A stretch of DNA of 34,799 nt from Candidatus Methanoperedens sp. (GTDB taxonomy: Archaea; Halobacteriota; Methanosarcinia; Methanosarcinales; Methanoperedenaceae). The position numbers and the translations under genes are program-made. The stretch spans positions 1 through 34,799 of the forward strand of contig JAUSDC010000108.1 in assembly GCA_030650845.1 (NCBI GenBank), written 5' to 3'. The notes under the pieces were generated by a model, which saw only the letters and a program-made list of their open reading frames with translations, had not been told where the DNA came from and did not search any database. Of this stretch, positions 3,851 through 31,519 are shown piece after piece (positions within the stretch are counted from its first letter, which is position 1; the number at the start of each line of letters is the position of its first letter).

Positions 3851-4663
3851 TCATATACTCAATGCCCGTTTTTCTATCAGTCTCTCGATCAATAACCGTG
3901 AAGCTTCCTTTGGATCCTTGATTCCATCACCGATTATTTCCCCGCTTGTTCTCTGGGGTGAAAAGATCTTTCGAACCTGTGTAGCAGAACCTTTAAGCCC
4001 GATCGTGTTTTCATTTAATCCCATTATTTTGTTATCCCACAATGTCGCTTTTGAATCCTCTGCCATTAATCGCATAGGCACTGTCGGATATCTCAGGCTG
4101 TTTATTTCTTTCACGACCGCGATCATTGCAGGCAATTTCGCTTCCACTATTTCGTGCCTTCCTTCCAGCCTGCGCCTGACCCTTATTTTTTTTGCCTTCA
4201 GGTCAACACTTTCAATGCGGTCAACAAGTGTCAACTGTGAATATCCAAGGCGAGTGGCGATACCCGGCCCCACCTGTGCCGTGTCACCATCGATGGTCTG
4301 CCTGCCGCAAATTACGATAGCCACTTCCTCCTTCTGGCCAAGTCTCCTTATGGCTTCGGATAGAACCTGGCTTGTAGCCAGGGTGTCAGCTCCTCCGAAG
4401 GCGCGGTCGCTTAGAAGTACAGCTTCATCTGCTCCAAGGGCGATCGCTTTTTTCAGCGTGATCTCGGTATTTGGCGGCCCCATTGAAATTACTGCTACGC
4501 GAAAGCCATATTTTTCTTTTAACCTTAACCCTTCTTCTAATGCGTGGGTATCATACGGATTAATAATAAAAGGGACACCTTCACGGATCAAAGTACCAGT
4601 AACCGGGTCAACTCTAACCTGAGTAGTATCCGGGACCTGTTTGATACACGTGACAATTAGCAT
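3851..4663 (-). CDS. etfB: Electron transfer flavoprotein beta subunit
   Basis: A full-length EtfB of 270 residues. It has the N-terminal CIKQVPDT, the NPYDTHALEEGLRLKE segment and the nucleotide-binding stretch CGRQTIDGDTAQVGP. The last is the form usual in anaerobic or bifurcating-type ETFs, which bind a second FAD where mammalian EtfB binds AMP; assigning bifurcation from this motif is inference. EtfB forms a dimer with EtfA, encoded just downstream. Its start ATG overlaps the stop of the upstream short-chain reductase (TAATG), so translation is probably coupled and the ETF belongs to the same operon as the PHA genes. Confidence 0.93.
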   Translation of the reverse strand: MLIVTCIKQVPDTTQVRVDPVTGTLIREGVPFIINPYDTHALEEGLRLKEKYGFRVAVISMGPPNTEITLKKAIALGADEAVLLSDRAFGGADTLATSQVLSEAIRRLGQKEEVAIVICGRQTIDGDTAQVGPGIATRLGYSQLTLVDRIESVDLKAKKIRVRRRLEGRHEIVEAKLPAMIAVVKEINSLRYPTVPMRLMAEDSKATLWDNKIMGLNENTIGLKGSATQVRKIFSPQRTSGEIIGDGIKDPKEASRLLIERLIEKRALSI

Positions 4664-5514
4664 TAAATATAGAGCCCACCATTAATATCTATGACCTGGC
4701 CTGTTATATAATTCCCATCTTCTGAGACCAGATATGCCACAGCTCCTGCCACCTCGGATGGCTTACCGAGCCTTCCCAGCGGTATCTGGGCAAGGATCTT
4801 ATCCATAATCTCTTTAGGGACCGATCTTAGCATATCAGTTTCAATAAAACCAGGTGCAACAGCGTTTACGGTTATACCTTTGCCTGCAAATTCTTTTGCC
4901 AGCGTTTGCGAGAGGGCAATTAATCCTGCCTTTGAAGCTGCATAATTTGCCTGTCCGCGGTTACCCATTCTCCCGATAACCGAGGATATATTCACGATCC
5001 TGCCGTACTTCCTTTCAAGCATTCCTTCTATGACAGCTTTGGTGCAGTAGAATGCTCCATCCAGGTTCACGGATAAGACTTCACTCCACATCTGGGGAGT
5101 CATTTTTACAAAAGATTTATCCCTTACAATTCCAGCGTTATTGACCAGAATATCTATTTTACCAAACTGCTTTATAATCTCTTCCCGCATCCTGTTCACC
5201 TGCGCAAAGTCATTGACATTTGCCTGGCATATGATAGAATGCTTGCCCATAGAATCTATTAGATCTGAGACTTCCTTCGCGTTCTCCTTTGTCTCCATCA
5301 GGTCTATCTTCAGGGATAATTTATCGAATTCGTCTAACATACCCATCTGATCTATTATCTTTGATAACTTCTCAGCCTGTTCTTTTGTTGACTGATAATT
5401 AATTGCAACATCTGCGCCATCTTCAGCCAGACGCAAGGCGATCGCCTGACCTATACCTCTTGATCCTCCGGTGACCAGTGCGACTTTACCTTCCAAATCT
5501 CCCTTCTTTCCCAT
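4663..5514 (-). CDS. Short-chain dehydrogenase (FabG/PhaB-like) with an internal 32-residue duplication
   Basis: A classical SDR with the cofactor motif TGGSRGIG (residues 15-22), NNAG, the SSV serine strand, YAASK for the catalytic Tyr and Lys, and the PG-x-I-x-TDM region of FabG-type 3-oxoacyl reductases. By context it likely reduces acetoacetyl-CoA or a related 3-oxoacyl-CoA. At 283 residues it is about 35 longer than phaB nearby. The excess lies before the third strand and looks like a tandem duplication: residues 44-58 (KEQAEKLSKIIDQMG) and 76-90 (KENAKEVSDLIDSMG) match at 8 of 15 positions. The start follows GAGGT, which overlaps the end of the thiolase gene. A second reductase beside phaB suggests either different cofactor preference or use in the oxidative direction. 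Confidence 0.85.
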   Translation of the reverse strand: MGKKGDLEGKVALVTGGSRGIGQAIALRLAEDGADVAINYQSTKEQAEKLSKIIDQMGMLDEFDKLSLKIDLMETKENAKEVSDLIDSMGKHSIICQANVNDFAQVNRMREEIIKQFGKIDILVNNAGIVRDKSFVKMTPQMWSEVLSVNLDGAFYCTKAVIEGMLERKYGRIVNISSVIGRMGNRGQANYAASKAGLIALSQTLAKEFAGKGITVNAVAPGFIETDMLRSVPKEIMDKILAQIPLGRLGKPSEVAGAVAYLVSEDGNYITGQVIDINGGLYI

Positions 5515-5519
5515 ATTAT

Positions 5520-6698
5520 CTACCTCTTTACAACCATGGCAATACCCTGACCCCCCCCTATACAGAGGGTTGCAAGACCATAAGTACCTTTCCTTCGCTG
5601 CAATTCATGTAGAAGCGTGACCAGTATCCTGGTGCCGCTCGCTCCTATGGGATGCCCGAGTGCAATGGCGCCGCCATTAACATTGACGTTGTCAGGATTC
5701 AAACCCAGTTCATTTTTAACTGCTATGCTCTGTGATGCAAAGGCTTCGTTGAGTTCTATTACGTCCAGTTCATCTGCTGAAATACCAGCACGATCTATGG
5801 CTTTTCTGGTCGCGCCAATTGGACCAAGACCCATCAGTTCAGGAGGAACTCCACATAACCCATAACTCTGGATCGTTGCCAGGGGGGTAAGTCCTGATTC
5901 GTTTGCCTTTTCTTCGGACATAAGAAGAACACAGGCAGCTCCATCGTTAATTCCTGAAGCATTGCCTGCAGTCACTGTCCCGTCCTTTTTAAATGCAGGT
6001 CTTAGTTTTGCCAGGGTCTCTTTTGTGGTGCCGAACCTTGGGAATTCATCCGTATCAAAGAGCACTGGTTCGCTTTTTGGCTGAGGAATTCCCACTGGAA
6101 CAATTTCATCCTTGAACTTACCAGCCTTAATTGCAGCTTCTGCTTTATTCTGGCTGATCGCTGAGAACTCGTCCTGCTCTTCCCGTGTGATCTTGTATTT
6201 TTCTGCTACGTTCTCTGCAGTTATTCCCATGTGGTAATTTCCAAAAACATCCCACAGCCCATCATATATCATCAGATCCACTACTTCATCGTTGCCCATT
6301 TTTGCTCCCCAGCGGTTCTTTTTCAGTGCATACGGAGCCATGGACATGGACTCCATGCCGCCAGCAAGCACAACATCTGCATCACCCAGCAATATAGCCT
6401 GAGCACCCAACACGATCGATTTCAATCCCGAGCCGCACACTTTGTTCACAGAAAAGGAAGGAACTTCGTTTGGAATTCCCGCCCCGATCGCAGCCTGCCT
6501 TGCCACATTCTGGCCATGACCTGCTGATAGAACATTCCCCATGATGACTTCTTCAACTTCGCTTTGTTCAACATTTACCCTTTTCAGGGCATCTTTCAGA
6601 ACAACAGAACCAAGTTGTCCGGGACTGAAATCCTTAAGACTTCCCCCGAATTTCCCGACAGCAGTTCTTGTTGCAGATACAATAACTACATTCTTCAT
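5520..6698 (-). CDS. phaA: Acetyl-CoA acetyltransferase (thiolase)
   Basis: A full-length thiolase (392 residues) with the acyl-accepting Cys88 in [11 protein letters not shown], the NEAFASQ segment, the GHPIGASG histidine loop, and the second active Cys in LCIGGGQG near the C-terminus. It condenses two acetyl-CoA to acetoacetyl-CoA, the first step of polyhydroxybutyrate synthesis, or runs in reverse during its breakdown. The gene lies 28 bases after phaB and 5 before the next reductase, with GGGTGA five bases ahead of its ATG. Its first ~20 codons recur in the broken gene at 23655-23906, which marks the second, decayed PHA locus. Confidence 0.95.
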
Positions 6699-6726: not shown

Positions 6727-7464
6727 TCAAATTATTAATCCGCCATCCACGCTAAGCACAGCCCCATTAACAAAGTTTGCTTCATCTGAAGCAAGATACA
6801 AATATGCATTTGCAATATCCTTTGGCTCACCCAGCCTGCGTAATGGAGTTTTCTCCTTCATCATTTCAAGGATCTTTTCAGGGACATTTGAGGTCATTGG
6901 AGTCGCAATAAACCCTGGAGCCACAGCATTTACACGAATCCCCCTTTTCCCGAGTTCCTTGGCCAGGGTCTTTGTCATGCCGATCAGACCGGCTTTGGTT
7001 GCAGCATAATTGACCTGCCCGACATTGCCGTTGAGTCCAACGATCGATGATGTATTGATAATTACGCCACTCCCCTGGTTCATCATTACTTCAACCACAG
7101 CCTGGCTGCAGTTAAAAACTCCTTTAAGATTGACGTCGATAACCTTATCCCACTGCTCCTCAGTCATTTTTGATAAAAATGCATCCTGAACAATTCCTGC
7201 ATTATTTATTAACACGTCTATTTTACCATATTTTTCAAGAGTTATCTTAACCATCTGTTTTGCCTGTTCTCTGTTGGAAACATTCAATTTAAAAAAAAAT
7301 CCCTCTCCATTTGTCTTGATCTGTGCTACTGTTTCTTCCCCAGCCGTTTCATTCATATCAGCGACAACGACTTTGGCTCCTTCTTTGGCGAACAGGAGTG
7401 CAGTCTCTTTGCCAATACCGCTTCCTGCTCCTGTAATAATTACGACCTTGTTTTCAAGTCTCAT
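6727..7464 (-). CDS. phaB: Acetoacetyl-CoA reductase (PhaB/FabG family), copy 1
   Basis: This 245-residue SDR has TGAGSGIG for NAD(P) binding, NNAG, SS at the catalytic serine and YAATK for the Tyr-Lys pair. In this operon it should reduce acetoacetyl-CoA to 3-hydroxybutyryl-CoA, the monomer for PhaC. Its ATG overlaps the phaC stop as ATGA, so the two are translationally coupled; a GGTGA site sits in the phaC tail. A paralog at 27248-27985 matches it at about 88 % of residues by hand count. FabG and PhaB cannot be separated by sequence alone, so the assignment rests on the neighbours. Confidence 0.9.
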   Translation of the reverse strand: MRLENKVVIITGAGSGIGKETALLFAKEGAKVVVADMNETAGEETVAQIKTNGEGFFFKLNVSNREQAKQMVKITLEKYGKIDVLINNAGIVQDAFLSKMTEEQWDKVIDVNLKGVFNCSQAVVEVMMNQGSGVIINTSSIVGLNGNVGQVNYAATKAGLIGMTKTLAKELGKRGIRVNAVAPGFIATPMTSNVPEKILEMMKEKTPLRRLGEPKDIANAYLYLASDEANFVNGAVLSVDGGLII

Positions 7465-8651
7465 TTCTTATTCACCTTTGATCTGCGATTCTTTCTTTTT
7501 TGTTCAATCTTCTTTTCCTTAGCCGGTTCAGGCAACTCTATGTTAGCTGATGCCGTCTTTTCTTCTGCTTTTCCATTCAGGAGAGACCTGGGCTTTAACC
7601 ACGCTGAGATCTTGGGACAAACTTCTTTCTGGGATTTTGAGCCCACAAATATTCCTATATGACCGGTCGGGAAAACCAGGGTTTCTTTATCAGTGCTCGA
7701 TACCGCATTTGATAACGGTTTACTTGAATCGTTCGGAACCAGGTGGTCGAATTCTGCCATGACATTGAGCAAAGGCATCGTAATATTTTTTAAATTGATC
7801 TTCGTACCATTGAGCTTCATCTCATTCTTGATGAGAAGGTTCTTCTGGTAGCAGTCTTTCATGAACTGCCTGAAGGTTTCTCCGGCCTGGTCAGGACTAT
7901 CAAAAATCCATTTTTCCATTCTCAGGAAATTCTTGACATACTCTTCATTTCGAATCTGGCATGTTGTATCATCAGGTTTGCATTCGATCCGATCAAACAT
8001 TCCTACATACTTATCGATCATTAGCCTGAATGGATCAAGGAGCAAGAACCCTGAATTCAGGAAATCTCCAGGCACTATTCCATAGAAGTCCACGATCTTG
8101 TCCACGTCCAGGCTTTTTGCCCATAGATTAAGAATTCCTTTATCAGTATCAAAGTCCACGGGAGCCACCAGAGTCACCAGATTTTGAACATTTTCAGGGT
8201 GCTGTGCGGCATACATCACAGAAAAAGTCCCGCCCTGGCATACTCCGAGGAGAGTGATCTTATCCAATCCAGACCTCTCTTTAATATTATCCACAGCATT
8301 ATTAATATAACCGTTCACATAATCATCAAGTGTGAGATATCTGTCTGCACCTGATGGATATCCCCAGTCAATGACATAAACATCAAAACCTTCTTCCAGA
8401 AGCTTCTTTATTACACTCTTATCAGGCTGGAGATCCAGAATATAGTACCTGTTCACGAGTGCATACACTATGAGTATTGGAACTTGATGTGGTTTTTCCA
8501 CTGTGGGGATATAATGGAGAAGTTTCATCTTATCTTCGGTATAAATGATCTCCGAAGGTGTTGTTCCAACAGAAAATTCGGGTGGTTTCAGGAATAATTC
8601 CATTCCATATTTGATTTTATCAAAATCTTCAATTAAATTAAGTCCGTTCAT
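7461..8651 (-). CDS. phaC: Class III PHA synthase catalytic subunit, copy 1
   Basis: A 396-residue alpha/beta hydrolase of the PhaC class III type. The lipase-like box is GVCQGG with Cys138 as nucleophile; Asp302 (AEFDHLVP) and His331 (PTGHIG) complete the triad. YVIDWGYPSGADR upstream is typical of PhaC. The enzyme polymerises 3-hydroxyacyl-CoA into PHA at the granule surface, with PhaE as partner; phaE is the preceding gene. Length fits class III (~360) plus a C-terminal tail of about 30 residues rich in Lys and Arg (KEKKIEQKRKNRRSKVNKK) not needed for the fold. The tail is also present in copy 2. The gene is expressed between phaE and phaB. Confidence 0.95.
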   Translation of the reverse strand: MNGLNLIEDFDKIKYGMELFLKPPEFSVGTTPSEIIYTEDKMKLLHYIPTVEKPHQVPILIVYALVNRYYILDLQPDKSVIKKLLEEGFDVYVIDWGYPSGADRYLTLDDYVNGYINNAVDNIKERSGLDKITLLGVCQGGTFSVMYAAQHPENVQNLVTLVAPVDFDTDKGILNLWAKSLDVDKIVDFYGIVPGDFLNSGFLLLDPFRLMIDKYVGMFDRIECKPDDTTCQIRNEEYVKNFLRMEKWIFDSPDQAGETFRQFMKDCYQKNLLIKNEMKLNGTKINLKNITMPLLNVMAEFDHLVPNDSSKPLSNAVSSTDKETLVFPTGHIGIFVGSKSQKEVCPKISAWLKPRSLLNGKAEEKTASANIELPEPAKEKKIEQKRKNRRSKVNKK

Positions 8652-8672: not shown

Positions 8673-9245
8673 CTATTTTTTCTCTTTTAGTTCTTTTATC
8701 TGGCTTTTCAGTTCTTTTACTGTTTTTTTAAGAGAATACAACTCTTTATTGATCTCGTCGATTTCCGTCTTTGTAGGGAGATTCATGGGTTTCAGATAAT
8801 TCTCTTCAAGCATTTGCCTGTTGTATATTTGAAAATCCATTAAACACGAATTCAATTTCCCCATGTCAGACACAAAGTGACCTGATTTCGAAAAGTCCTT
8901 AAAGGTTTCGCTATATGTCTCGATCCATGTATTGTAAAATTCCTTGTATTTCTCAGGACTTATCTCACCTTTCATATCTGGTGCTGTCTTTTCCTGAACT
9001 TTGCGCATTGCTTCCATGAATACAGTCTGAAAATTAGAACTGGTATCCAAACCGGCTGCATAAAGGTTAGCAAAAGTGGAGAAACCCTTCATCATTTTTT
9101 CAGATTTCTCACGTGCCGGACCCACAGAAGGCATCTCGACGAGTTTGCCCATTGTGGCTTTGTACGTATTTAACCACTGGTCAAAAAATTCCTGTGTGGA
9201 TTCAAAATTGGATTTTTCCATATTTAAACCGTCTGATTCGCTCAT
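8673..9245 (-). CDS. phaE: PHA synthase subunit PhaE-like, copy 1
   Basis: This 190-residue protein directly precedes phaC. It ends in a predicted coiled coil (ELYSLKKTVKELKSQIKELKEKK) and contains the module SPEKYKEFYNTWIETYSETF, also found in the larger upstream proteins. This matches PhaE, the non-catalytic subunit of class III PHA synthases, with a conserved region before the coiled coil (LEENYLKPMNLPTKTEIDEI). I start it at the ATG at 9245, which overlaps the upstream gene's stop as ATGA, rather than at an in-frame ATG 18 codons earlier that lies inside that gene. PhaE is thought to activate and stabilise PhaC on the granule. The copy 2 counterpart is damaged. Confidence 0.85.
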   Translation of the reverse strand: MSESDGLNMEKSNFESTQEFFDQWLNTYKATMGKLVEMPSVGPAREKSEKMMKGFSTFANLYAAGLDTSSNFQTVFMEAMRKVQEKTAPDMKGEISPEKYKEFYNTWIETYSETFKDFSKSGHFVSDMGKLNSCLMDFQIYNRQMLEENYLKPMNLPTKTEIDEINKELYSLKKTVKELKSQIKELKEKK

Positions 9246-10273
9246 GTTGCTGACTTTCCCGGATAAGCTGACGCTGAACGAACACCTGATTTCACCCACA
9301 TCTTTGACATATTGGTAAACGTGTCAGCGTACATCTTAGCCATGACCTTTACAGGTTTCATGATATCTTTCATAGGGCCTCCTACTGTCGGCATGTCATC
9401 AAAAAAGCCATCAAAAGCCTTTTCAGACGTCGTTACCCAGAGATTATTAAATTCTTTATATGCCTCAGGATCAAAGGATTGTTTCGACATCTCCTCAGCC
9501 TTTTCTGACATTTTTTCAAGTGCTGCTATCCAGGACTTGTACATACTCAGATAAATATTGGAACTCTTTACAAAATGCTCAAACATTTCACCAGTTGGCT
9601 CCATGGACTTGACATATTTTCCATAGATCTCTTTATTTGTATCCACCAATAAGGTATAAAATTCCTTATAGGCTTCCGGGCCTGCATCTCCCCGGGAGAT
9701 CTCTGCCATTTTCTCGGAAAGTTTCAGCATGGATTCATTCAATGGCTCGCAAAGCTGTGTGTATGATTTCTTCCATAGTTTTGACATCTGCAAAAAGCTT
9801 CCTAAGTATATCTCTGGTATGCCCATGTAATTCCCAAACATCTCTTTGGTACAATCTTTCGCAGGCAGTTCTATTAGCTCATCGAATATTTTTTTGTAAG
9901 ACGTCATCCACATATCATAGCATTCTTTATGTTTTGCAGGATCTGGTTCGCCCTGGAGTATCTCTTTTGTCTTGCGGGAATTCCCTTCTAACCGGGCAAT
10001 CCATGATCTGTAGAGTTTATTGGATTCCTCAGCGCCTGATAGGAATTTTTCAAGTGTTTCTTTATCGGATTTCAGTGTTGGGATCGGATACAATTTGCCA
10101 AATGTATTCTGGTATGTTTTGATCCATTCATCATAGAATTCCCTGTATTTCTGTGGTGTTGCTTCTTTTGAGAGAAGAGATGTCTTTTCGAGCATTTCTC
10201 CTGTGGATTCAGTCCATGTCTTGAAAATCTTCTCTTCGTTCACGTCTTTTTTTTCTTCAGTTCTCTTGACCAT
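9242..10273 (-). CDS. Repeat-built PhaE/phasin-like protein A1
   Basis: A 343-residue, helix-rich protein made of about four diverged units of 70-80 residues. Each unit is headed by a motif like (D)PEAYKEFYxxWxxTYxxxF: ATPQKYREFYDEW, PDPAKHKECYDMW, AGPEAYKEFYTLL, FDPEAYKEFNNLW. The same module occurs in PhaE, so it is probably a granule-associated, phasin-like or PhaE-like scaffold; function is inferred from this and from operon position. No signal peptide or membrane segment is seen. The ATGA overlap with phaE implies coupled translation. A close paralog lies at 29658-30719 in the second locus, where it likewise overlaps a phaE start. Confidence 0.75.
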   Translation of the reverse strand: MVKRTEEKKDVNEEKIFKTWTESTGEMLEKTSLLSKEATPQKYREFYDEWIKTYQNTFGKLYPIPTLKSDKETLEKFLSGAEESNKLYRSWIARLEGNSRKTKEILQGEPDPAKHKECYDMWMTSYKKIFDELIELPAKDCTKEMFGNYMGIPEIYLGSFLQMSKLWKKSYTQLCEPLNESMLKLSEKMAEISRGDAGPEAYKEFYTLLVDTNKEIYGKYVKSMEPTGEMFEHFVKSSNIYLSMYKSWIAALEKMSEKAEEMSKQSFDPEAYKEFNNLWVTTSEKAFDGFFDDMPTVGGPMKDIMKPVKVMAKMYADTFTNMSKMWVKSGVRSASAYPGKSAT

Positions 10274-10299
10274 AAATAACTCACTTTTTCTTAATTAGT

Positions 10300-10319
10300 C
10301 CCCGTATTTAAATACGGGG
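10300..10319. repeat. Perfect palindrome between two phasin-like genes
   Basis: A perfect 20-base palindrome, CCCCGTATTT/AAATACGGGG, in the 67-base gap between two phasin-like genes. It is the first of a family: related palindromes of the form CCCcg...AATTA...cgGGGG occur at 11494-11510, 11527-11547 and 11926-11945. As all lie between cistrons, they may be processing or attenuation hairpins rather than operators. Confidence 0.7.
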
Positions 10320-10340
10320 TATTTTATCCGTCTGGTTCTC

Positions 10341-11468
10341 TTATGTTGTATGCATTCCCTTTCCCGGATATGATGACGTTGAATGAACACCCGAATTCAT
10401 CCACGTATTGGATATGCTGGTAAAAGTATCTGCGTATATCTTGGCAGCATTCTTCACAGGCTCCATGATCTCCTTGAACGGGCTGAACGTTGGTGTGTTC
10501 TCAAAGAAGTTATCAAATGCCTTTCCATACATTTTTGCCCAGAGATTATAAAGTTCTTTATTTGCCTCCGGATCGGCGCTCTGCTTAGATAGTTCCTCAG
10601 CCTTCTGTGACATTTTTCCAAGGGTTGCTATCCAGGATTTGTATAGGTTCTGATTGACGTTTGCGCTGCGCTCAAATTGCTCTAATATTTCCTTTGAAGG
10701 TCTCATGGACTGGGTATCAAATAACCTGCCATAGAGCTCCTGATATGTATTCATCCATAAGGCATGAAATTCCTTATAGGCTTCAGGGCTTGCATTCCCA
10801 CGGGAGATCTCTGCTGATTTCAAGGAAAGATTCAGCATGGAGTCAGCATATGGCATGTATAGTTTTGCGTATGAATCTTTCCATATTTTTGACATCTGCT
10901 CAAAGGCTTCTGAATATATATCAGGTGTTCCTGTGATATTCTCAAAGATCTCCTTCATATTTTTCTGCAATGGCAGTGTAAGAAGCTCGTTGAGCATTTT
11001 TCCATATGATTTGATCCACATTTCATAGACTTCTTTATATTTTGCAGGATCTGCTTCGACCTGGAGTACTTCGCGGGTCGCTCTTGAATTCTCATCTAAT
11101 TCTGCGATCCATGAACCATAGATCTTACTTGATTCCTCTGCGCTAACTAAAAGATTCTCAAATGTTTTCTTATTGGATTCCAGGGTCGGGATCTGATAAA
11201 ATTTACCGAAGCTATTCTGGGAGGTCTTTACCCATTCACTATAAAATTCCTTATATGTTTCAGGTGTAGCATCCTTTGAGAGTTCGAACGCTTTCCCGAA
11301 AAGTGCTTCCGTGGATTCGAACATGGGCTTGTATAACTTTAAGTAGGAATCTTCCCACATTTTTGAAACTGCTGTGTAGCTGTCTTCGCATGTCTTGAAA
11401 TTATTCTTTGTTTCTGTTTTGATATCTTCTTTGTGGATATCTCTTCTTTCTTCTGATTTTTTAACCAT
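10341..11468 (-). CDS. Repeat-built PhaE/phasin-like protein B
   Basis: A 375-residue relative of the neighbouring phasin-like protein, with four modules: ATPETYKEFYSEW, ADPAKYKEVYEMW, ASPEAYKEFHALW and ADPEANKELYNLW. Each is followed by a region predicted to be helical with aromatic and Met residues. It is soluble with no signal peptide. It stands first in the PHA gene series and is the member with no counterpart in the second locus. A role on PHA granules is likely from context. Its C-terminus (SSYPGKGMHTT) resembles that of its paralogs (SAYPGK), so these genes arose by duplication. Confidence 0.72.
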   Translation of the reverse strand: MVKKSEERRDIHKEDIKTETKNNFKTCEDSYTAVSKMWEDSYLKLYKPMFESTEALFGKAFELSKDATPETYKEFYSEWVKTSQNSFGKFYQIPTLESNKKTFENLLVSAEESSKIYGSWIAELDENSRATREVLQVEADPAKYKEVYEMWIKSYGKMLNELLTLPLQKNMKEIFENITGTPDIYSEAFEQMSKIWKDSYAKLYMPYADSMLNLSLKSAEISRGNASPEAYKEFHALWMNTYQELYGRLFDTQSMRPSKEILEQFERSANVNQNLYKSWIATLGKMSQKAEELSKQSADPEANKELYNLWAKMYGKAFDNFFENTPTFSPFKEIMEPVKNAAKIYADTFTSISNTWMNSGVHSTSSYPGKGMHTT

Positions 11469-11636: not shown

Positions 11637-11906
11637 CTATTTGCATGAATGCCATTCTTCGAACAATTCGTCTGTATTTAGAAGATATCTTGATCTTTCC
11701 AGGTTCATTTCCTCAACCATCTTCACCGAAGACCAGTTATGGATGAGTCCTTTTTTGGGAAGCGTATCTTCATATGACACATCAAGATTGACATTGGAAT
11801 AGATATGATCTCTATTTCCCACATCAACTGCGATGTCAGCAAATGGTCCTTCTGGATTAATTTGCTGGATTATACCCTCAGGTATACTTATTTCTGTAAT
11901 TTCCAT
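11637..11906 (-). CDS. Small protein with LERSRYLLNTDELFEE motif
   Basis: An 89-residue acidic protein of unknown function. I start it at the ATG at 11906, six bases after GAGGTG. Near the C-terminus it carries LERSRYLLNTDELFEE, found word for word in an otherwise different small protein at 31114-31386 beside the suf genes. The first two thirds (IPEGIIQQINPEGPFADIAVDVG) match nothing I recognise. It is the only gene between the PHA operon and thermosome 1. Confidence 0.65.
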   Translation of the reverse strand: MEITEISIPEGIIQQINPEGPFADIAVDVGNRDHIYSNVNLDVSYEDTLPKKGLIHNWSSVKMVEEMNLERSRYLLNTDELFEEWHSCK

Positions 11907-11925
11907 ATATTTCACCTCGATTCGT

Positions 11926-23654: not shown

Positions 23655-23906
23655 TTACTCGGTCCGCACTACCCATTCACGCACTTTCGGCCATAGGTTC
23701 AGATGTGCTTCCCTGCTCACCGAAAGACCAATATGAGATGAAGGGATGACGATTTCTTCATAACTCTTCCCTGAATAAACATCTTTTAACGCTTTACCTG
23801 CTGCTAAAGGAACAATATGGTCATATTTAGCCAGTATGTTAATCAGACGTCCCCCGAATTTTCCGACGGCTGTTCTGGTCGCAGATACAATAACTACATT
23901 ATTCAT
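23655..23906 (-). pseudogene. Chimeric remnant: start of thiolase (phaA) fused to end of a PHA synthase (phaC)
   Basis: The first ~20 residues ([19 protein letters not shown]) are the N-terminus of PhaA as at 6698. The remainder, ILAKYDHIVPLAAGKALK through IVIPSSHIGLSVSREA to KVREWVVRTE, is the C-terminal Asp-His part of a PhaC. The Asp (KYDH) and His (SSHIG) of the triad are kept; the Cys half and nearly all of the thiolase are absent. The PhaC part differs clearly from both PhaC copies in the window. Upstream, TATAAAAAGGTGAA resembles the spacer before phaA. A deletion between phaA2 and another phaC best explains it. The frame is open for 83 codons but cannot make either enzyme. Confidence 0.85.
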
Positions 23907-24070
23907 TGTTTTCACCTTTTTATACGTTGGGGTCAAGGGGTAGAGAACACTGTGCCCTTCGAGGGCGCAGATGAATCGGCGTGCCTTGAAGCACAGGAAA
24001 GAGAGAACAACAAAAAGGATATCAAACATGAATGTAACGGCACTATATCCACCGGGGTTAAAATCCCACC

Positions 24071-24090
24071 GTACAGGTCTGTTCCTGTAC
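24071..24090 (+). other. Stem-loop just before the group II intron
   Basis: GTACAGG-TCTGTT-CCTGTAC is a perfect 7 bp stem with a 6-base loop, 14 bases before the proposed intron 5' end. Some group II introns (class C) prefer to insert after hairpins. The segment 23907-24104 otherwise shows no gene. Confidence 0.5.
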
Positions 24091-24701
24091 GAAGAGAAAG
24101 GGAAGTGCGACGCTGCGAAGCGTGGTGCGGAGTTCCCCAGTATCGGAAACCACAGCCCTGAACAACATGTAAACCAGAAGTGGCCTTAGCATGATGCGAC
24201 ATTCCCGATTCAAATGGAAGCTTGAGCAGAATAATGATTGCTGGGGTGATCATGGCAGGGATGGCTTCGAAAGCTCTCCTGTGCGACCGAGGGAGGTCTT
24301 GCAGAGTCCTCCCTGAAGCTGAGTTAATACCCTACACACGTTTCTGGGTCACTGAACTCAACTGAAGGGATAGAGGTAATGGAGGTATAACCTTACGGGA
24401 AAACCAAAGTGATGCTCTGCAAGAAGTCGGACGAACTCATAGTAGCAATGAAAGTCAAACCGACGACAAACCGAACCTGTGCCGCAGGGTGCAGGGGGCG
24501 ACGGTTCGAGGAGAAAACTTGACTCAGCGAAGGGGTTCTAGTCTGGATAGAGTAGAGGTGAACAGCATGATAACACCAATCGGATTAAAAGAAGATACCA
24601 GAAAGGTAAGCACCACTGAAATGGTAGTGAAACGCTCTCTGGTGACAGTATGTGAAGATAGTGGAACAACTGCTGGAAGCCGAAACCGATGGAGACAGTA
24701 A

Positions 24702-25952
24702 ATGAAGAAATGGAATCAGCAATACCATGACAAATTCAAGGCATTTGCTCTGATACATAAAGTATGGGATCAAAAGAACCTTGAAAAGGCATGGAAAAGC
24801 GTAAAAGCAAATAGAGGAAGTGCCGGAATCGACAACATAACCATTGAACAATTCGAACAAAATCTATCACAGAATTTAGCCGAAATACAGAGACTACTTA
24901 AAGAGAAACGCTATGAACCAAGCCCGGTCTTAAGAATATTGATCCCAAAAGATAACGGGAAGATGAGGAAACTTGGGATTCCTACAGTGAGAGACAGAGT
25001 AGTCCAGCAGGCATTAAAGAACGTACTTGAACCCATCTTTGAAGAAATATTCCTGCCCCAGAGCCATGGTTACAGACCCAACACTAATGCCCATGCGGCA
25101 ATAAGGAAGGGTGAAGCATTCCTTGAAAGAGGCTACCACTGGGTAGTGGATGCCGATATTGAAGGATTCTTCGATCATGTTGACCATCAAATAATGATGG
25201 ATCTTGTATGTGAAAAGATCGCAGACGGCAGAGTTCTTTCTCTCATAGAATCGTTCCTGAAAAGCGGAATAATGAATGAAGGCATATTCGAGGAGAGCAT
25301 AGAAGGCACTCCTCAGGGCGGAAACCTCAGCCCGCTGCTGTCGAATATTTATCTGAATCACTTCGATAGGAGAATGGGCGATTATGGTTACCTGCTGCTT
25401 AGATACGCAGATGACATCGTTATTTTCTGCAAGTTCGAATCAGATGCAGAAGATGCACTGAAACGAGCAAAGGAGATTCTGGAGGGAGAGTTAAAATTGA
25501 AACTCAGTCCTGAAAAGACAAAGGTCGTCCATGCAAGAAAGAAAGGGGTTGAGTTCCTTGGTTTTCACTTCAATGGAAGATGGAGAAGACCAAGGGATAA
25601 AGCAAGGAAGAAGTTCAAAGAAGATATAAAATACAGGACAAGACGGAATCAGCCTGTAAACATTGAAACTGTAATACGACTTCTCAATCCCGTAATTCGG
25701 GGTTGGGGAAACTATTTTAAAGGCGGTACTGTGAAGAAATTGTACGGAGAACTCGATGGTTATATTCGGGGACGTTTGAGAAGCTTCAAGGCTAAAAGGC
25801 GTACCCAGAAGACTATTTTATATACGCTTCCTCAATCAGAGCTTAAAGAAAAGGGGCTGATTTCTCTTTCTTCGTTGCTGAATGAATCCATCTCCTGCAA
25901 AGGGAAAAGCCAGACGAAAGCCGTGTACGGGAAATCCGTTTGCACGGTTTGA
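24702..25952 (+). CDS. ltrA: Group II intron reverse transcriptase/maturase
   Basis: 416 residues. Reverse transcriptase blocks run from GIPTVRDRVVQQALKNVLEP through SHGYRPN, VVDADIEGFFDHVDH and GTPQGGNLSPLLSNIYL to YADD (235-238) and LKLSPEKTKVVH. The maturase (X) domain includes VIRGWGNYFKGG (about 325-340). There is no HNH endonuclease domain, in line with its short length. The protein helps splice the intron and copies it into new sites. The reading frame runs through intron domain V and its TGA is the last three bases of that domain, so the C-terminal dozen residues are dictated by ribozyme structure. Active-site residues are intact and the protein may be functional. Confidence 0.93.
   Translation: MKKWNQQYHDKFKAFALIHKVWDQKNLEKAWKSVKANRGSAGIDNITIEQFEQNLSQNLAEIQRLLKEKRYEPSPVLRILIPKDNGKMRKLGIPTVRDRVVQQALKNVLEPIFEEIFLPQSHGYRPNTNAHAAIRKGEAFLERGYHWVVDADIEGFFDHVDHQIMMDLVCEKIADGRVLSLIESFLKSGIMNEGIFEESIEGTPQGGNLSPLLSNIYLNHFDRRMGDYGYLLLRYADDIVIFCKFESDAEDALKRAKEILEGELKLKLSPEKTKVVHARKKGVEFLGFHFNGRWRRPRDKARKKFKEDIKYRTRRNQPVNIETVIRLLNPVIRGWGNYFKGGTVKKLYGELDGYIRGRLRSFKAKRRTQKTILYTLPQSELKEKGLISLSSLLNESISCKGKSQTKAVYGKSVCTV
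25919..25952 (+). ncRNA. Group II intron domain V
   Basis: 34 bases beginning AGCCGTG and ending CACGGTTTGA. The outer stem AGCCGUG/CACGGUU includes the catalytic AGC triad at 25919-25921. The inner stem ACGG/CCGU is capped by a GAAA-type loop. Domain VI follows directly. Confidence 0.8.
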
Positions 25953-26063
25953 TGAGGAGGTGGAGGTTGAAAGACCTCTGCTTTACTCTACTACCCCTTG
26001 GAATAAACACTTTCACCCCACTATCATAAGCGACATATACTCTAAAAATAATGTCGATAGCGC

Positions 26064-27233
26064 ATGAGAACAACATATCAGTTCAGAGCATATCCAAACA
26101 AGAATTCTGAGGTCAATTCTATTAGAACCCTCTCCACATGCAGATGTCTCTATAACGATTCTCTTGCTGAAAGAAAACGACAGGCAGAGCTTAATCGATT
26201 AAAAAAAATATTTGATGTATTCCCGTGGGGAAAACCTGAATGGATAAACTATTATGATCAGGCAAACGAACTATCAGGATCAAAAACCGATTTTCAAAAC
26301 GAAGTTCACTCTCAGGTACTCCAAAACGTCTTGAAAAGAGTGGATATAAGTTTCAAGAATTTCTTTAATGGCTTCGGTTATCCCCGGTTTCAGGGGCGGG
26401 ATAGGTATAATAGTTTCACATATCCACAATCGGGTTTTGAACTGAAAGATGGAAAACTTATTCTTTCGAAAATAGGAACTTTCAAGATCATCCTTCATCG
26501 AAAGATCGAAGGTAAAATCAAGACCTGTACCATCAAAAAAGATATCGATCAATGGTACGTTTCCTTTTCATGTGAAATCGAAGAACCTGTCCCGGTCGAG
26601 ATCAAGACCAAAACTGGAATCGATGTTGGCTTAATCGATTTGATAACCTTGAGCAACGGGGAACAGATCAAACCTCCAAAGTTCTTGCGAGGATCTGAGG
26701 ATAAACTAACGCAGGAACAGAAGCGGTTAAGCCGGAAAAAGCTCGGTTCAAAGAACCGGAATAAGCAACGGGTGATAGTATCAAAAGTACATCGAAGGAT
26801 CAGGAATCAGAGAAAAGATTTTGCTCATAAACTATCAAAAGATCTTGTAGATACCTATGACCTCATCAAATTCGAGGATTTGCAGATAAAGAACATGGTG
26901 CAGAACCATCGTCTTGCTAAATCCATATCAGATGCAGGGTGGTATCAGTTAATGAATTTCACGAAATCCAAGGCAGAATGTGCCGGGAAGAGAGTTGAAT
27001 TCGTTAATCCATCAGGAACATCACAGACCTGTATATGTGGTTTAAGTGTCCCTAAAGACCTTTCAGTGAGGGTACATATTTGTCCTTCCTGTGGTCTTGT
27101 GATGGGAAGAGATCAAGTGTCTGCGATATTGATAGAGAATATACCAAGCTGTACCGTAGGAACTACGGGAATTCAAGACCGTCAAGGACTCTCAAGCAGA
27201 GAGCCGATGCAGCGGTACGCCCAAGCCCTTTAG
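26064..27233 (+). CDS. tnpB: TnpB, RNA-guided nuclease of an IS200/IS605-family element
   Basis: A 389-residue TnpB with an OrfB N-terminus (YQFRAYPNK ... CRCLYNDSLAERK). RuvC residues are Asp187 (GIDVG), Glu271 (FEDLQ) and Asp350 (GRDQVSA, where DRDxNAA is usual). The zinc ribbon reads C323-x-C325 ... C340-PSC343; the first pair is one residue shorter than the usual CxxC. TnpB cuts DNA guided by an RNA from the element's right end and helps retain the element. No tnpA is present, so it would depend on a transposase elsewhere. It lies between the group II intron and the stop codon of phaB2. The changed zinc pair may mean reduced activity. Confidence 0.92.
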   Translation: MRTTYQFRAYPNKNSEVNSIRTLSTCRCLYNDSLAERKRQAELNRLKKIFDVFPWGKPEWINYYDQANELSGSKTDFQNEVHSQVLQNVLKRVDISFKNFFNGFGYPRFQGRDRYNSFTYPQSGFELKDGKLILSKIGTFKIILHRKIEGKIKTCTIKKDIDQWYVSFSCEIEEPVPVEIKTKTGIDVGLIDLITLSNGEQIKPPKFLRGSEDKLTQEQKRLSRKKLGSKNRNKQRVIVSKVHRRIRNQRKDFAHKLSKDLVDTYDLIKFEDLQIKNMVQNHRLAKSISDAGWYQLMNFTKSKAECAGKRVEFVNPSGTSQTCICGLSVPKDLSVRVHICPSCGLVMGRDQVSAILIENIPSCTVGTTGIQDRQGLSSREPMQRYAQAL

Positions 27234-27248
27234 GGTTGGGTAGTTCAC
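27220..27248 (+). mobile_element. Right end of the TnpB element
   Basis: CCCAA-g-CCC-TTTA-GGG-TTGGG (27220-27240) is a hairpin overlapping the tnpB stop, as is typical of IS605-type right ends and of the guide RNA 3' part. TAGTTCAC follows and likely marks the end of the element at about 27248. Bases beyond it belong to phaB2 and would act as the guide. Confidence 0.65.
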
Positions 27249-27985
27249 TATATTACTAACCCCCCATCCACACAAAGTACTGCTCCATTAACAAAGTTTG
27301 CCTCGTCTGAAGCAAGATACAAATATGCATTCGCAACATCTTTTGGTTCGCCAAGTCTGCGCAATGGAGTTTTTTCTTTCATCATTTCAAGGATTTTATC
27401 AGGCACGCTTGAGGTCATCGGAGTCTGTATGAATCCAGGCGCTACTGAATTAACACGAATCCCTTTTCTCCCCAATTCCTTAGCCAGGGTCTTTGTCATA
27501 CCGATAAGACCGGCTTTAGTTGCAGCATAATTGACCTGCCCAACATTGCCATTTAATCCTACAATAGAGGATGTGTTAATGATCACGCCATTCCCCTGGT
27601 TTATCATAACCTCAACCACTGCCTGAGTACAATTAAAAACTCCTTTGAGGTTTATATCAATGACCCTATCCCACTGTTCTTCTGTCATCTTAAATATAAG
27701 TGCATCCTGGACAATGCCTGCATTATTTATCAAAACATCTATTTTACCATATTTTTCCATAGTAGTTTTAACCATCTGTTTTGATTGTTCTCTATTGGTT
27801 ACATCCAATTTTACGAAAAATCCCTCCCCATTTTTCTTGATCTCAACAACTGTCTCCTCCCCAGCCTTTTCATTCACATCGGCGACAACTACTTTAGCTC
27901 CTTCTCTTGCAAACAGGAGTGCAGTTTCTTTACCAATACCGCTTCCCGCTCCTGTAATAATTACGACCTTGTTTTCAAGTCTCAT
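27248..27985 (-). CDS. phaB: Acetoacetyl-CoA reductase (PhaB/FabG family), copy 2
   Basis: A 245-residue SDR, about 88 % like copy 1 by hand count, with TGAGSGIG, NNAG, SS and YAATK all intact. It should also reduce acetoacetyl-CoA. It overlaps the phaC2 stop by ATGA. Its last codons (LVI then TAG) reach the edge of the TnpB element, so part of the stop codon may come from the insertion. The phaA expected next is absent; only its first ~20 codons survive, at 23887-23906 and before, beyond the mobile elements. Confidence 0.9.
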   Translation of the reverse strand: MRLENKVVIITGAGSGIGKETALLFAREGAKVVVADVNEKAGEETVVEIKKNGEGFFVKLDVTNREQSKQMVKTTMEKYGKIDVLINNAGIVQDALIFKMTEEQWDRVIDINLKGVFNCTQAVVEVMINQGNGVIINTSSIVGLNGNVGQVNYAATKAGLIGMTKTLAKELGRKGIRVNSVAPGFIQTPMTSSVPDKILEMMKEKTPLRRLGEPKDVANAYLYLASDEANFVNGAVLCVDGGLVI

Positions 27986-29172
27986 TTTTTGTTCACCTTT
28001 GATTTGCGCTTCTTTCTGTTTTGTTCAACCGTCTTTTCTTTGGCTAATTCAGGCAACTCTTCATTTCCGGATTCAGTCTTTTCGTCTCCTTTTCCATCGA
28101 GAAGAGACCTGGGCTTCAACCACGCTGCGATCTTTGGGCAGACCTCTTTCTGGGATTTTGAGCCCACAAAGATGCCGATGTGCCCGGTCGGGAAAACAAG
28201 CATCTGTTTATCCGCACTTGATACGGCATCGTTAAGGGGAATGCTCGCAGCGTTGGGAACCAGGTGATCCGTTTCGGCCATGACGTTAAGAAGGGGCATT
28301 GTGATATTTTTCAAATTGATCTTCTTTCCATCGAGTATCATCTCGTTCTTGATGAGGAGGTTCTTCTGGTAGCAGTCTTTCATGAACTGCCTGAAGGTTT
28401 CTCCGGCCTGGTCAGGACTGTCAAATATCCATTTTTCCATCCTGAGGAAATTCTTGATATAATCTTCATTTCGAATTGCACATGTTGTATCATCCGGATT
28501 GCATTCGATCCGATCGAACATACCTACATACTTATCGATCATAAGCCTGAATGGGTCAAGTAGCAAGAACCCTGAATTCAGAAAATCTCCGGGTACTATT
28601 CCATAGTAGTCCACGATTTTATCCACGTCTAAGCTTTTTGCCCAGAGATGAAGAAGTCCTTTATCAGTATCGAAGTTCACAGGAGTCACTAGCGTAACCA
28701 GGTTTTTCACCTTTTCAGGATGCATTGCGGCATACATCACAGAAAAAGTTCCGCCCTGACATACTCCGAGCAGGGTGATCTTATCCAATCCAGACCGCTC
28801 CCTGATCTTATCCACAGCATTATTTATATAACCGTTCACATAATCATCAAGTGTGAGATATCTGTCTGCACCTGATGGATATCCCCAGTCAATGACATAA
28901 ACATCAAAACCTTCCTCCAAAAGCTTCTTTATCACACTCTTATCAGGTTGGAGATCCAGAATGTAGTATCGGTTCACGAGTGCATACACTATGAGTATTG
29001 GAACCAGATGTGGTTTTTCCACTATTGGGATATAATGGATAAGTTTCATCTTATCTTCACTAAATATTAACTCAGAAGGCGTTGTTCCAACCGAAAATTC
29101 GGGTGGTTTCAGGAATAATTCCATTCCACATTTGAATTTCTCAAAATCTTCAATTAAATTAAGTATGTTCAT
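27982..29172 (-). CDS. phaC: Class III PHA synthase catalytic subunit, copy 2
   Basis: A 396-residue PhaC closely matching copy 1, with GVCQGG (Cys138), AETDHLVP (Asp302) and PTGHIG (His331), plus the same basic tail (VEQNRKKRKSKVNKK). All catalytic residues are present, so it could be active if a PhaE partner is supplied, for example from locus 1, since its own phaE is damaged. Its ATG overlaps the end of the phaE2 frame. Confidence 0.94.
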   Translation of the reverse strand: MNILNLIEDFEKFKCGMELFLKPPEFSVGTTPSELIFSEDKMKLIHYIPIVEKPHLVPILIVYALVNRYYILDLQPDKSVIKKLLEEGFDVYVIDWGYPSGADRYLTLDDYVNGYINNAVDKIRERSGLDKITLLGVCQGGTFSVMYAAMHPEKVKNLVTLVTPVNFDTDKGLLHLWAKSLDVDKIVDYYGIVPGDFLNSGFLLLDPFRLMIDKYVGMFDRIECNPDDTTCAIRNEDYIKNFLRMEKWIFDSPDQAGETFRQFMKDCYQKNLLIKNEMILDGKKINLKNITMPLLNVMAETDHLVPNAASIPLNDAVSSADKQMLVFPTGHIGIFVGSKSQKEVCPKIAAWLKPRSLLDGKGDEKTESGNEELPELAKEKTVEQNRKKRKSKVNKK

Positions 29173-29661
29173 GTCATATCCTTACAACCCTCTTTTTTCT
29201 CTTTTAGTTCTTTGATCTGGATGGTCAGTTCCTTTACTGTTTTCTTGAGAGAATATAACTCTTTATTGATCTCGTCGATTTCCGTCTTTGTGGGGAGATT
29301 CATGGGTTTCAGATAATTCTCTTCAAGCATTTCCCTATTGTATTTTTGAAAATCCATTAAATACGAATTCAATTTCCCTATGTCAGACACAAAGTGACCT
29401 GATTTCGAGAATTCCTTGAAGGTCTCGCTATACGTCTCCATCCAGACATTGTAAAAATGCTTATATTTGTCGGGACTGATTTCCCCTTCCATATAGGTTG
29501 CAGTCTTTTCCTGCACTTTGCGCATTGCTTCCATGAATAAACTCTGTAAATTGGAACTGGTTTCCATCCCTGCCATATAAAGGTTAACAAATGTAGAGAA
29601 AACCTTCATCATTAATGGATTTTTCCATACTTTTACCTTTTTTTAGATCCGAAGAACTCAT
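29169..29661 (-). pseudogene. phaE: PhaE-like gene, copy 2, damaged by an internal deletion
   Basis: The ATG at 29661 overlaps the upstream stop as ATGA, as in copy 1, and starts MSSSDLKKGKSMEKS. Compared with copy 1 (MSESDGLNMEKS...EKMMKG), about 38 codons are missing and 4 stray bases remain, a net loss of about 110 bases. The frame then ends after 10 more codons. Downstream, from the ATG at 29612, 147 codons matching the rest of PhaE are open, including the KYKHFYNVWMETYSETF module and the coiled coil, with a 7-residue longer end (GCKDMT). A shortened PhaE from 29612 could be made by reinitiation, but the N-terminal module is lost. Confidence 0.8.
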
Positions 29662-30719
29662 TTTTTATTCTTTCCAGGATACGCAGAGGCTGAACCGATA
29701 TCTGATCTCACCCACATCTTTGACATCTTGGTAAATGTGTCAGCGTACATCTTAGCCATGACCTTTACAGGCTCCATTATATCTTTCATAGGGCCTCCAA
29801 CTGTGGGCATATCCTCAAAAAAGCTATCAAAGGCCTTTTCATACATCTTTACCCATAGATTATAGAATTCTTCATACTCCTCTGGATCAGAGGTTTGTTT
29901 GGACATTTCCTTAGCCTTTTCGGACATTTTTTCAAGCGCTGCTATCCAGGATTTGTACACACCCAGATAAATGTCGGAACTCTTTACAAAATGCTCGAAC
30001 ATTTCACCCGTTGGCTCCATGGACTTGACATATTTGTCATATATCTCATTATATGTATCCACCCATAAGGTATAATATTCCTTATAGGCTTCCGGGTCTG
30101 CATCTCCCCGAGAGATTTCTGCCGTTTTCTCGGAAAGTTTCAGCATGGATTCATTCAGTGGCTCCCAAAGCTGTGAGTATGATTTCTTCCATAGTTTTGA
30201 CATCTGCAAAAAGCTCCCTGAGTAGATGTCTGGTATGCCCATATAATTCCCAAATATCTCTTTTGTACTTTCTTTAGCCGACAGTTCTAAAAACTCATCG
30301 AATATTTTTTCATAAGACTTCATCCAGATATCATAGCATTCTTTAAATTTTGCAGGATCTGGTTCGCCCTGGAGTATCTCTTTTGTCTTCCTGGAATTCT
30401 CTTCCAACTCGGAAGTCCACGACTTGTAAAGTTTATTGGATTCCTCTGCACTTGATATAAATTTTTCAAGTGTTTCTTTATTTGATTTCGGTGTTGGGAT
30501 CGGATAAAATTTACCAAACGAATTCTGGTATGTTTTTATCCATTCATCATAGAATTCCCTGTATTTCTGTGGTGTCGCTTCTTTTGAGAGAAGAGACATC
30601 TTTTCTAACATATCTCCTGTGGATTCTATCCAGGGCTTGTATAGTTTCAAGTAGGAATCCTCCCACATTTTTGAAACTTCTCTTAATTCTTCTTTTCTTC
30701 CTTGGCTTTTCTTGACCAT
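29658..30719 (-). CDS. Repeat-built PhaE/phasin-like protein A2
   Basis: 353 residues, a close paralog of the protein at 9242-10273 with four modules (ATPQKYREFYDEW, PDPAKFKECYDIW, ADPEAYKEYYTLW, SDPEEYEEFYNLW) and the SAYPGK C-terminus. Its N-terminus (REVSKMWEDSYLKLYKPWIEST) is instead like that of the 375-residue protein at 10341-11468 (KMWEDSYLKLYKP), so it combines features of both. It is helical with no signal peptide. It begins the second PHA locus and its stop overlaps the phaE2 start. A granule-scaffold role is inferred from position. Confidence 0.75.
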   Translation of the reverse strand: MVKKSQGRKEELREVSKMWEDSYLKLYKPWIESTGDMLEKMSLLSKEATPQKYREFYDEWIKTYQNSFGKFYPIPTPKSNKETLEKFISSAEESNKLYKSWTSELEENSRKTKEILQGEPDPAKFKECYDIWMKSYEKIFDEFLELSAKESTKEIFGNYMGIPDIYSGSFLQMSKLWKKSYSQLWEPLNESMLKLSEKTAEISRGDADPEAYKEYYTLWVDTYNEIYDKYVKSMEPTGEMFEHFVKSSDIYLGVYKSWIAALEKMSEKAKEMSKQTSDPEEYEEFYNLWVKMYEKAFDSFFEDMPTVGGPMKDIMEPVKVMAKMYADTFTKMSKMWVRSDIGSASAYPGKNKK

Positions 30720-30777
30720 ATTATCTCACTCCATAATTTTTAATACTGTAGGCTATCGAAACGTTTTTATTTGGAAA

Positions 30778-31062
30778 TCACTTAAGTGATTCGATGAACT
30801 CGTCGATGGGTATCGCTTTATATGTCGCTGTTTTGATGCTGCCGCGAGATAAAATTTCAACAATTGCTTTGCCGACCGTGGCTTCATCATCCGCTTCCAC
30901 GATGGTCAAAAAGTCAAAATTTCCTAAGACCGCATACTGATCCAGCACTTTTACACCCATGTCTTTGAGCTCAGCATTTACTTCTTTCACTCTGCCAGGA
31001 TTCTTCTTGAGAGTCTTAGCACCTTCATCTGTCAGGTTAGAGATTATTATATATATTGCCAT
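30778..31062 (-). CDS. GYD-domain protein
   Basis: A 94-residue protein matching the GYD family, small ferredoxin-fold-like proteins: YIIISNLTDEGAKTLKKNPGR, then VLDQYAVLGNFDFLTIVEADDE where GxYD is common (here GNFD). The function of the family is poorly known. GGGAGGT lies seven bases before the ATG. It is downstream of the small cysteine protein and the suf genes on the same strand and may share their transcript. Confidence 0.85.
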   Translation of the reverse strand: MAIYIIISNLTDEGAKTLKKNPGRVKEVNAELKDMGVKVLDQYAVLGNFDFLTIVEADDEATVGKAIVEILSRGSIKTATYKAIPIDEFIESLK

Positions 31063-31113
31063 ATTTTATACCTCCCATTCCCTTAATTATAATCGCGCAA
31101 ACCTTGTCTACTT

Positions 31114-31386
31114 TTAAGAATTTGCCATTTCAATAAATTTTCTGCAATTATTACTGCATACAAGGAATTGTTCACTTGTTTTCATTTTAGCCCCGTGGGC
31201 TTCATCTGTATCAACCAATGTCCCGCAACATACTGTCCCTTCATTACTGCCAAATTCGACATTGATATTATCGGTTATCTCATACTCGGATTTTCCATAT
31301 ATTTCTTCAAACAATTCATCGGTATTTAATAGATACCTTGATCGTTCCAGATATATCTCCCCAAGCATATCTGCATATTCTTCCAT
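31114..31386 (-). CDS. Small cysteine-containing protein with LERSRYLLNTDELFEE motif
   Basis: About 90 residues. After LERSRYLLNTDELFEE, identical to the motif in the 89-residue protein at 11637-11906, comes an acidic stretch. Then follows a cysteine pattern (VCCGTLV ... FLVCSNNCRKF) that could bind zinc or an iron-sulfur cluster. It lies just downstream of sufB. GGAGGT is 11 bases before the ATG at 31386 and 2 before an in-frame GTG three codons earlier; both are imperfect. Function is unknown. Confidence 0.6.
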   Translation of the reverse strand: MEEYADMLGEIYLERSRYLLNTDELFEEIYGKSEYEITDNINVEFGSNEGTVCCGTLVDTDEAHGAKMKTSEQFLVCSNNCRKFIEMANS

Positions 31387-31519
31387 TGCTATCACTTACC
31401 TCCCGTTTTCCATAATTGGATACGCTTTCTTCTACAATAAAACTTTCGGTGAGAGCCGGTGCATTGGTGATTTGTTTTAGATATCCCGCCACCTTTAATA
31501 GTCTGATATCCTTGCTCAC
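31316..31519 (-). CDS. Possible small overlapping ORF after sufB
   Basis: A 67-codon frame whose GTG overlaps the sufB stop (GTGA). The first ~40 residues (KDIRLLKVAGYLKQITNAPA ... VEESVSNYGKREV) look protein-like; the rest overlaps the next gene in another frame. It may be a real coupled gene, or the area may hold a frameshifted, formerly longer version of the next gene. Confidence 0.3.
   Translation of the reverse strand: MSKDIRLLKVAGYLKQITNAPALTESFIVEESVSNYGKREVSDSNGRICRYAWGDISGTIKVSIKYR

Follow-up and report, generated by a model that had tools for sequence, protein, structure and literature searches.

The large proteins encoded next to phaE in Candidatus Methanoperedens are built from four helical hairpin units that they share with PhaE, the partner subunit that class III PhaC requires. 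We lean towards regarding them as ancient, coil-less paralogues of PhaE for which we infer a place at the surface of the granule or synthase, beside PhaE-PhaC. The window, i.e., the whole stretch of 34,799 nucleotides analysed here, makes up contig C110 in a genome of 3.4 Mb from the Methanoperedenaceae (ANME-2d); among named records, the nearest to its PhaC are from Candidatus Methanoperedens and Methanoperedenaceae, whose operon it matches. Its first operon lies on the minus strand in the order A1, B1, phaE, phaC, phaB-like SDR, thiolase and SDR. A1 (10341..11468, 375 aa; unit HMM 1.5e-116) and B1 (9242..10273, 343 aa; 3.1e-116) are the large proteins. They are followed by phaE (probable extent 8673..9221, 182 aa; PF09712 91.6 bits, profile positions 150-311), with two units and a C-terminal coil (LPTKTEIDEINKELYSLKKTVKELKSQ..., 8679..8774, recognised by a coil HMM), and by a class III PHA synthase gene, phaC (7461..8651, 396 aa; TIGR01836 477 bits, cut-off 365). 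The phaE start is probably the ATG at 9221 (MEKSNFESTQ, matching homologues) and not the opening of the reading frame at 9299. The phaB-like SDR reductase (6727..7464) was named from 3-oxoacyl-ACP/acetoacetyl-CoA reductase models, the thiolase (5520..6698) from a reading of its sequence, and the second SDR gene (4663..5514) completes the operon; the order large-phaE-phaC-phaB-thiolase-SDR is conserved in the genus.

The repeats had been noticed in a sequence-only reading, which described a module (D)PEAYKEFYxxWxxTY present about four times in each of three proteins of 343-375 residues and once or twice in PhaE. Those counts hold, with exactly four units in each of A1, B1 and B2 (the large protein of the second operon), and the motif is there, but the true repeat is longer: the unit is a helical hairpin of ~63-87 residues consisting of a short helix with the motif P-E-A-Y-K-E-F-Y-x-x-W and a long helix that bears another W motif. 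An HMM derived from all eight A1 and B1 units placed the four units at residues 66-359 of A1 (66-136, 138-224, 225-296 and 297-359, with a half unit before the first), 37-329 of B1 (37-108, 109-195, 196-265 and 266-329) and 47-339 of B2 (47-118, 119-205, 206-275 and 277-339), with unit E-values from 1e-22 to 1e-33. The large proteins can be described as an A-B-A-B series behind a half unit, with a superperiod of ~158 residues, and because the units alternate, the strongest self-offset is found at this distance. Alignment of one half against the other gave scores of 189-316 (z 26-41) for A1, B1, B2 and three homologues encoded on contig C79, compared with a mean of 34-39 and no score above 79 among 500 shuffles of each; for the PhaE of the first operon (E1) and a PhaE of C79 the same procedure reached z 4-5 only. 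Chance or composition as the source of the repeat likeness was ruled out by these shuffles together with a reversed-profile control.

Two units were found in the PhaE reading frame 8673-9299, at residues 35-106 (E 2e-7) and, at the motif, 113-138 (E 7e-7), and only one in the second PhaE, because its 5' part is missing. Across the genus, the unit HMM recovered four units in nearly all full-length large proteins (~75 proteins), the few exceptions being cases in which a unit was reported in two pieces, the half unit was counted or one unit was weak; most PhaE of the genus have two. The A-B blocks within one large protein are 36% identical (35% between different proteins), whereas like blocks across large proteins are 55-57% identical, so the duplication is older than the spread of the family, and homogenisation was not seen. 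Judged by these identities, the sole recognisable duplication, in which a two-unit block was doubled, happened long ago, and the unit count has remained four ever since.

Structure prediction, which had been proposed as a check of the shared module, agrees with this map at the level of secondary structure. The AlphaFold2 model of B1 has ten helices in a short-long pattern that make up four helix pairs (pLDDT 66.7, pTM 0.39, i.e., low confidence), and that of PhaE two hairpins of short-long pairs plus the coil helix (pLDDT 77.1, pTM 0.54). The predicted short-long order is thus common to both models and fits the unit borders, and the tertiary arrangement of the models is not reliable. Neither the large nor the PhaE model matched a solved fold at E<=0.001, and searches of PDB sequences with both profiles returned no meaningful match and no solved relative of PhaE.

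A second operon copy lies at 27248-30719 of the window and a third, with three large genes, on contig C79 (L006), giving six large genes in this genome versus three phaE and three phaC. In the second copy, also on the minus strand, B2 (29658..30719, 353 aa; unit HMM 4e-110) is 78% identical to B1, and phaC (27982..29172, 396 aa) is intact and 88% identical to the first phaC. Its phaE (29169..29612, 147 aa; PF09712 positions 185-310) is 5'-truncated and retains one unit motif and the coil; residues 1-68 are absent in the aligned frame, a remnant MEKS start persists in another frame, and part of the 5' region has gone through an out-of-frame deletion. More broadly, this second copy (23655-31395) is partly decayed, with its phaC, phaB and large gene intact. 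A 124-aa reading frame at 23655-24029 begins like a thiolase and ends like PhaC. It is separated from the remainder of the operon by a reverse transcriptase (24702-25952, read as group II intron type) and by a transposon gene of the TnpB-like kind (26064-27233). Immediately upstream of the large gene is a GYD-domain protein (30778-31062; PF08734, 94.8 bits). Two small reading frames, 11637-11915 and 31114-31395, have LERSRYLLNTDELFEE in common, and relatives of them recur near large genes at many Methanoperedens loci; 31114-31395 had no Pfam match and 11637-11915 no NCBIfam match.

That PhaE and the large proteins are built on one common module, as the sequence-only reading had it, is borne out by family models, the unit HMM and profile-profile comparison. 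Against the PF09712 (PHA_synth_III_E) gathering cut-off of 25.7 bits, B1 (32.7) and B2 (35.4) score above and A1 (22.1) just below; a search for PF09712 kinship, which had been suggested as a check, gave matches at E<=0.01 in 57/60 large proteins. The narrower TIGR01834 cut-off (154.95 bits) is not reached by B1 (15.5), B2 (19.9) or the PhaE of the first operon (78.5). In profile-profile comparison, the large proteins align with bacterial class III PhaE over 280 collinear columns (probability 99.6, E 3.6e-24; 13% for the reversed large profile as a control), covering about the first 310 residues of the bacterial protein and stopping before the coil. The short archaeal PhaE aligns, coil included, to residues 176-359 of the bacterial protein (99.9, E 1.3e-31), and by this alignment it is the counterpart of the bacterial C-terminal half. 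The HMM made from the window units alone recovered the full set of four in PhaE of Chloroflexota and clostridia (in the bacterial PhaE L234 at 92-142, 154-226, 229-304 and 311-336), which means that the archaeal proteins are not alone in having this layout. The bacterial blocks themselves barely recognise one another (E 9e-5, probability 60%). Gammaproteobacterial PhaE are clear kin of other bacterial PhaE and resemble the large proteins weakly (72%), so the claim of four units stands on clostridial, Chloroflexota and similar PhaE. Read through the large proteins, PhaE itself is, as far as sequence comparison can tell, an old repeat protein of hairpin units.

The large proteins thus share with the long bacterial PhaE (PF09712/TIGR01834) an identically ordered set of four hairpin units, spanning ~280-310 residues, and the neighbourhood of a class III phaC, which in the window is one gene away within the conserved operon (about 14 solitary paralogues of the genus are not adjacent to it). 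They differ in having clearer internal repeats, in falling far under the TIGR01834 cut-off, in occurring in several copies per genome alongside a separate short PhaE, and in the absence of the C-terminal coil. A coil HMM (consensus LPxxxEIDExxKxxYxLKKxVKxL) matched 50/50 short PhaE, 53/55 bacterial PhaE and 0/77 large proteins at E<1e-3; since it was made from short and bacterial members, their matches are expected, and the informative part is that the large proteins lack it. Judged on this defining feature, they are not PhaE, but coil-less paralogues. The short archaeal PhaE has the hairpin unit and the predicted short-long helix order in common with them, but consists of two units plus the coil and is nearer to the bacterial C-terminal half than to either large block.

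In a tree of blocks, short PhaE groups with the bacterial C-terminal block (support 99/96), and the two large-protein blocks pair with one another (88/73, unstarred). The AU test rejects trees that unite short PhaE and the C block of the large proteins (S+LC, p 0.007) and marginally rejects its union with their N block (S+LN, p 0.041) or with both (LN+LC+S, p 0.046); growth of the large proteins from the local short PhaE is therefore disfavoured. Trees of collinear descent, in which the large N block goes with the bacterial N block and the large C block with the bacterial C block and short PhaE, were not rejected (AU 0.25 and 0.35), although the best tree instead joins both large blocks. Throughout these trees the branches are long, and the AU test is a modest one. 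Profile scores were higher for LN-BN than for LN-BC and for LC-BC than for LC-BN. On this evidence the large proteins may have come either by collinear descent from a four-unit PhaE or by separate duplication of an N-terminal-type block.

The sequence-only reading had gone further, regarding the large proteins as a scaffold grown from PhaE by multiplication of the module, perhaps with several synthases recruited per chain. We think this very improbable: each chain does have four units and the family is common with PhaE, but the four units are old and already present in bacterial PhaE, their number is fixed and not variable, the trees that would join short PhaE to the large blocks are those rejected by the AU test, and recruitment of several synthases per chain is unsupported: the coil, retained in nearly every PhaE, is absent from all 77 large proteins. 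Convergence between helix-rich, K/E-rich sequences, in place of homology, is scarcely conceivable; both families are indeed helix-rich and charged, and several unrelated helical Pfam families give weak matches, but the shuffled and reversed controls fall far lower and the conservation of motif, order and spacing extends across 280 columns.

Kinship with phasins (PF09361 or PF05597), which like the large proteins are all-helical and PHA-linked, was considered as well. Single-sequence searches with hmmscan matched Phasin_2 (PF09361) in 13/60 large proteins, L084 alone passing the Pfam cut-off among the matches listed, but the large profile compared with a profile of 26 phasins reached a probability of at most 4.9%, so that homology to Phasin_2 is not supported, the phasin check raised earlier comes out negative, and 'phasin-like' is applicable to a possible function only. 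For PF05597, the large proteins are not among its listed matches. This genome encodes no Phasin_2 protein above cut-off and one small PF05597 protein. Within the PhaE alignment (99 sequences), PF05597 matched 11/99 (best 3.6e-6), in the PhaE of the first operon via the C-terminal coil, and weak BAR-domain matches appeared in 19/99.

Among the fetched loci of the genus, a large gene lies upstream on the same strand for 48/50 short phaE genes, and in 46 of those 48 it overlaps phaE or lies <=45 nt from it (342 nt away in the remaining two); where the overlap is 40-85 nt, the start codon was probably misassigned. A single large gene is present in forty operons, two in seven and three in one. Because the large genes are directly upstream and often overlap or abut phaE, they are probably translated together with it. 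All members of the family in the window sit in PHA operons, as the sequence-only reading had noted, but about 14 large genes elsewhere in the genus have no phaE-phaC nearby; four of these adjoin a phaB-like SDR and the others unrelated genes. Five solitary large genes (L085, L088, L090, L093 and L096) encode N-terminal extensions of 100-200 residues with a repeated TPSSWWEERKxIERPxPEDQERxYREEQERYEQERQ, a feature of solitary copies that most operon copies do not have; these extensions are probably disordered.

The family had also been called archaeal, which is too broad, as the large type is nearly confined to the Methanoperedenaceae: it was found in 30/238 genomes of the class (the source genome of the window possibly among the 30), nearly all of the same genus, the exceptions being one genome from another genus of the family and three further genomes within the order. 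Elsewhere in the phylum, a genome of a different family (G115) also has the large type (L209), in a complete large-phaE-phaC-thiolase-SDR set between two acetyl-CoA synthetase-like genes with a PhaC 78% identical to that of the window; going by this similarity, horizontal transfer out of or into Methanoperedens is possible. The same operon type occurs on a 41 kb contig from another family of the order (L210, G173), as a result of either transfer or misbinning of the contig. The other archaeal PF09712 matches of the phylum are mostly to the C-terminal part, many in frames of ~180-205 aa that recall the haloarchaeal-type PhaE (Haloferax; PMC12863089), and the same search found no large-type match, i.e., no large partner, in those genomes, which suggests that the N-terminal part may be dispensable. 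The plasmids and viral contigs searched gave no large-type match, so carriage by mobile elements (e.g., Borgs) could not be shown.

In Methanoperedens, PHA is a widespread carbon store (PMC8561730); cells stain for PHA, phaC and phaE transcripts are in the top 3% and PhaE is in the proteome (PMC11337218), and PHA is consumed when the cells face salt or sulfide stress (PMC11337218, PMC12138975). In a published pangenome, PhaC forms one gene cluster and PhaE does not (PMC8561730), and this split might come from a mixing of short and large PF09712 proteins. If the large proteins are coil-less PhaE paralogues acting at the granule or synthase surface, they would work with short PhaE and PhaC on the nascent PHA granule's surface. 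There, their hairpins may build an extended amphipathic layer or platform, packed on the polymer and against the hairpins of PhaE, while the link to PhaC would be carried by the coil-bearing PhaE alone. The large proteins would then correspond to the N-terminal helical part that bacterial PhaE has in cis, supplied as separate chains and in excess, and would be partly phasin-like in role. The solitary large genes outside phaE-phaC loci do not require a role bound to the operon and in that respect count against one.

A more specific version, in which the ancestral repeat region of PhaE has come apart from its coil, the four-hairpin proteins are platforms on the granule in a three-component class III synthase or granule machine and the short coil-bearing PhaE links them to PhaC, is put forward tentatively. 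We find it unlikely that they are purely granule-coat proteins of PhaE descent, the functional phasins of the genus, with no part in the synthase complex. Their copies outnumber PhaC and PhaE, they have solitary paralogues, the coil is lost, the genome lacks a Phasin_2 protein above cut-off, and a Methanoperedens gene named only as 'a phasin' is among the more highly expressed genes of one metatranscriptome (PMC11208441); but the small PF05597 protein could be that phasin, the large genes are tightly coupled to phaE, and the comparison with Phasin_2 profiles was negative. Distinctly doubtful, too, is a split synthase, in which the large protein would be an obligate third subunit that provides the N-terminal half of bacterial PhaE in trans, so that the active enzyme is PhaC-PhaE-large. 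The collinearity of the large protein with the bacterial N-terminal part, the correspondence of short PhaE to the C-terminal half and the near-universal adjacency of the two genes would suit such an enzyme, but the large proteins span all four units, including the part retained in short PhaE, haloarchaeal class III synthases function with PhaE and PhaC (PMC12863089), and no large partner turned up in other lineages of the phylum in the search described above.

No paper on the large proteins, or on a repeat structure of PhaE, turned up in a literature whose coverage was thin on subscription journals. The clear repeats of the large proteins expose a hairpin-unit build of PhaE, whose internal repeat has become hard to recognise in bacteria through divergence. 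With unit borders now available for the design of constructs, a division of labour between hairpins and coil becomes testable, in a setting of uncultured archaea that use PHA as a carbon store.
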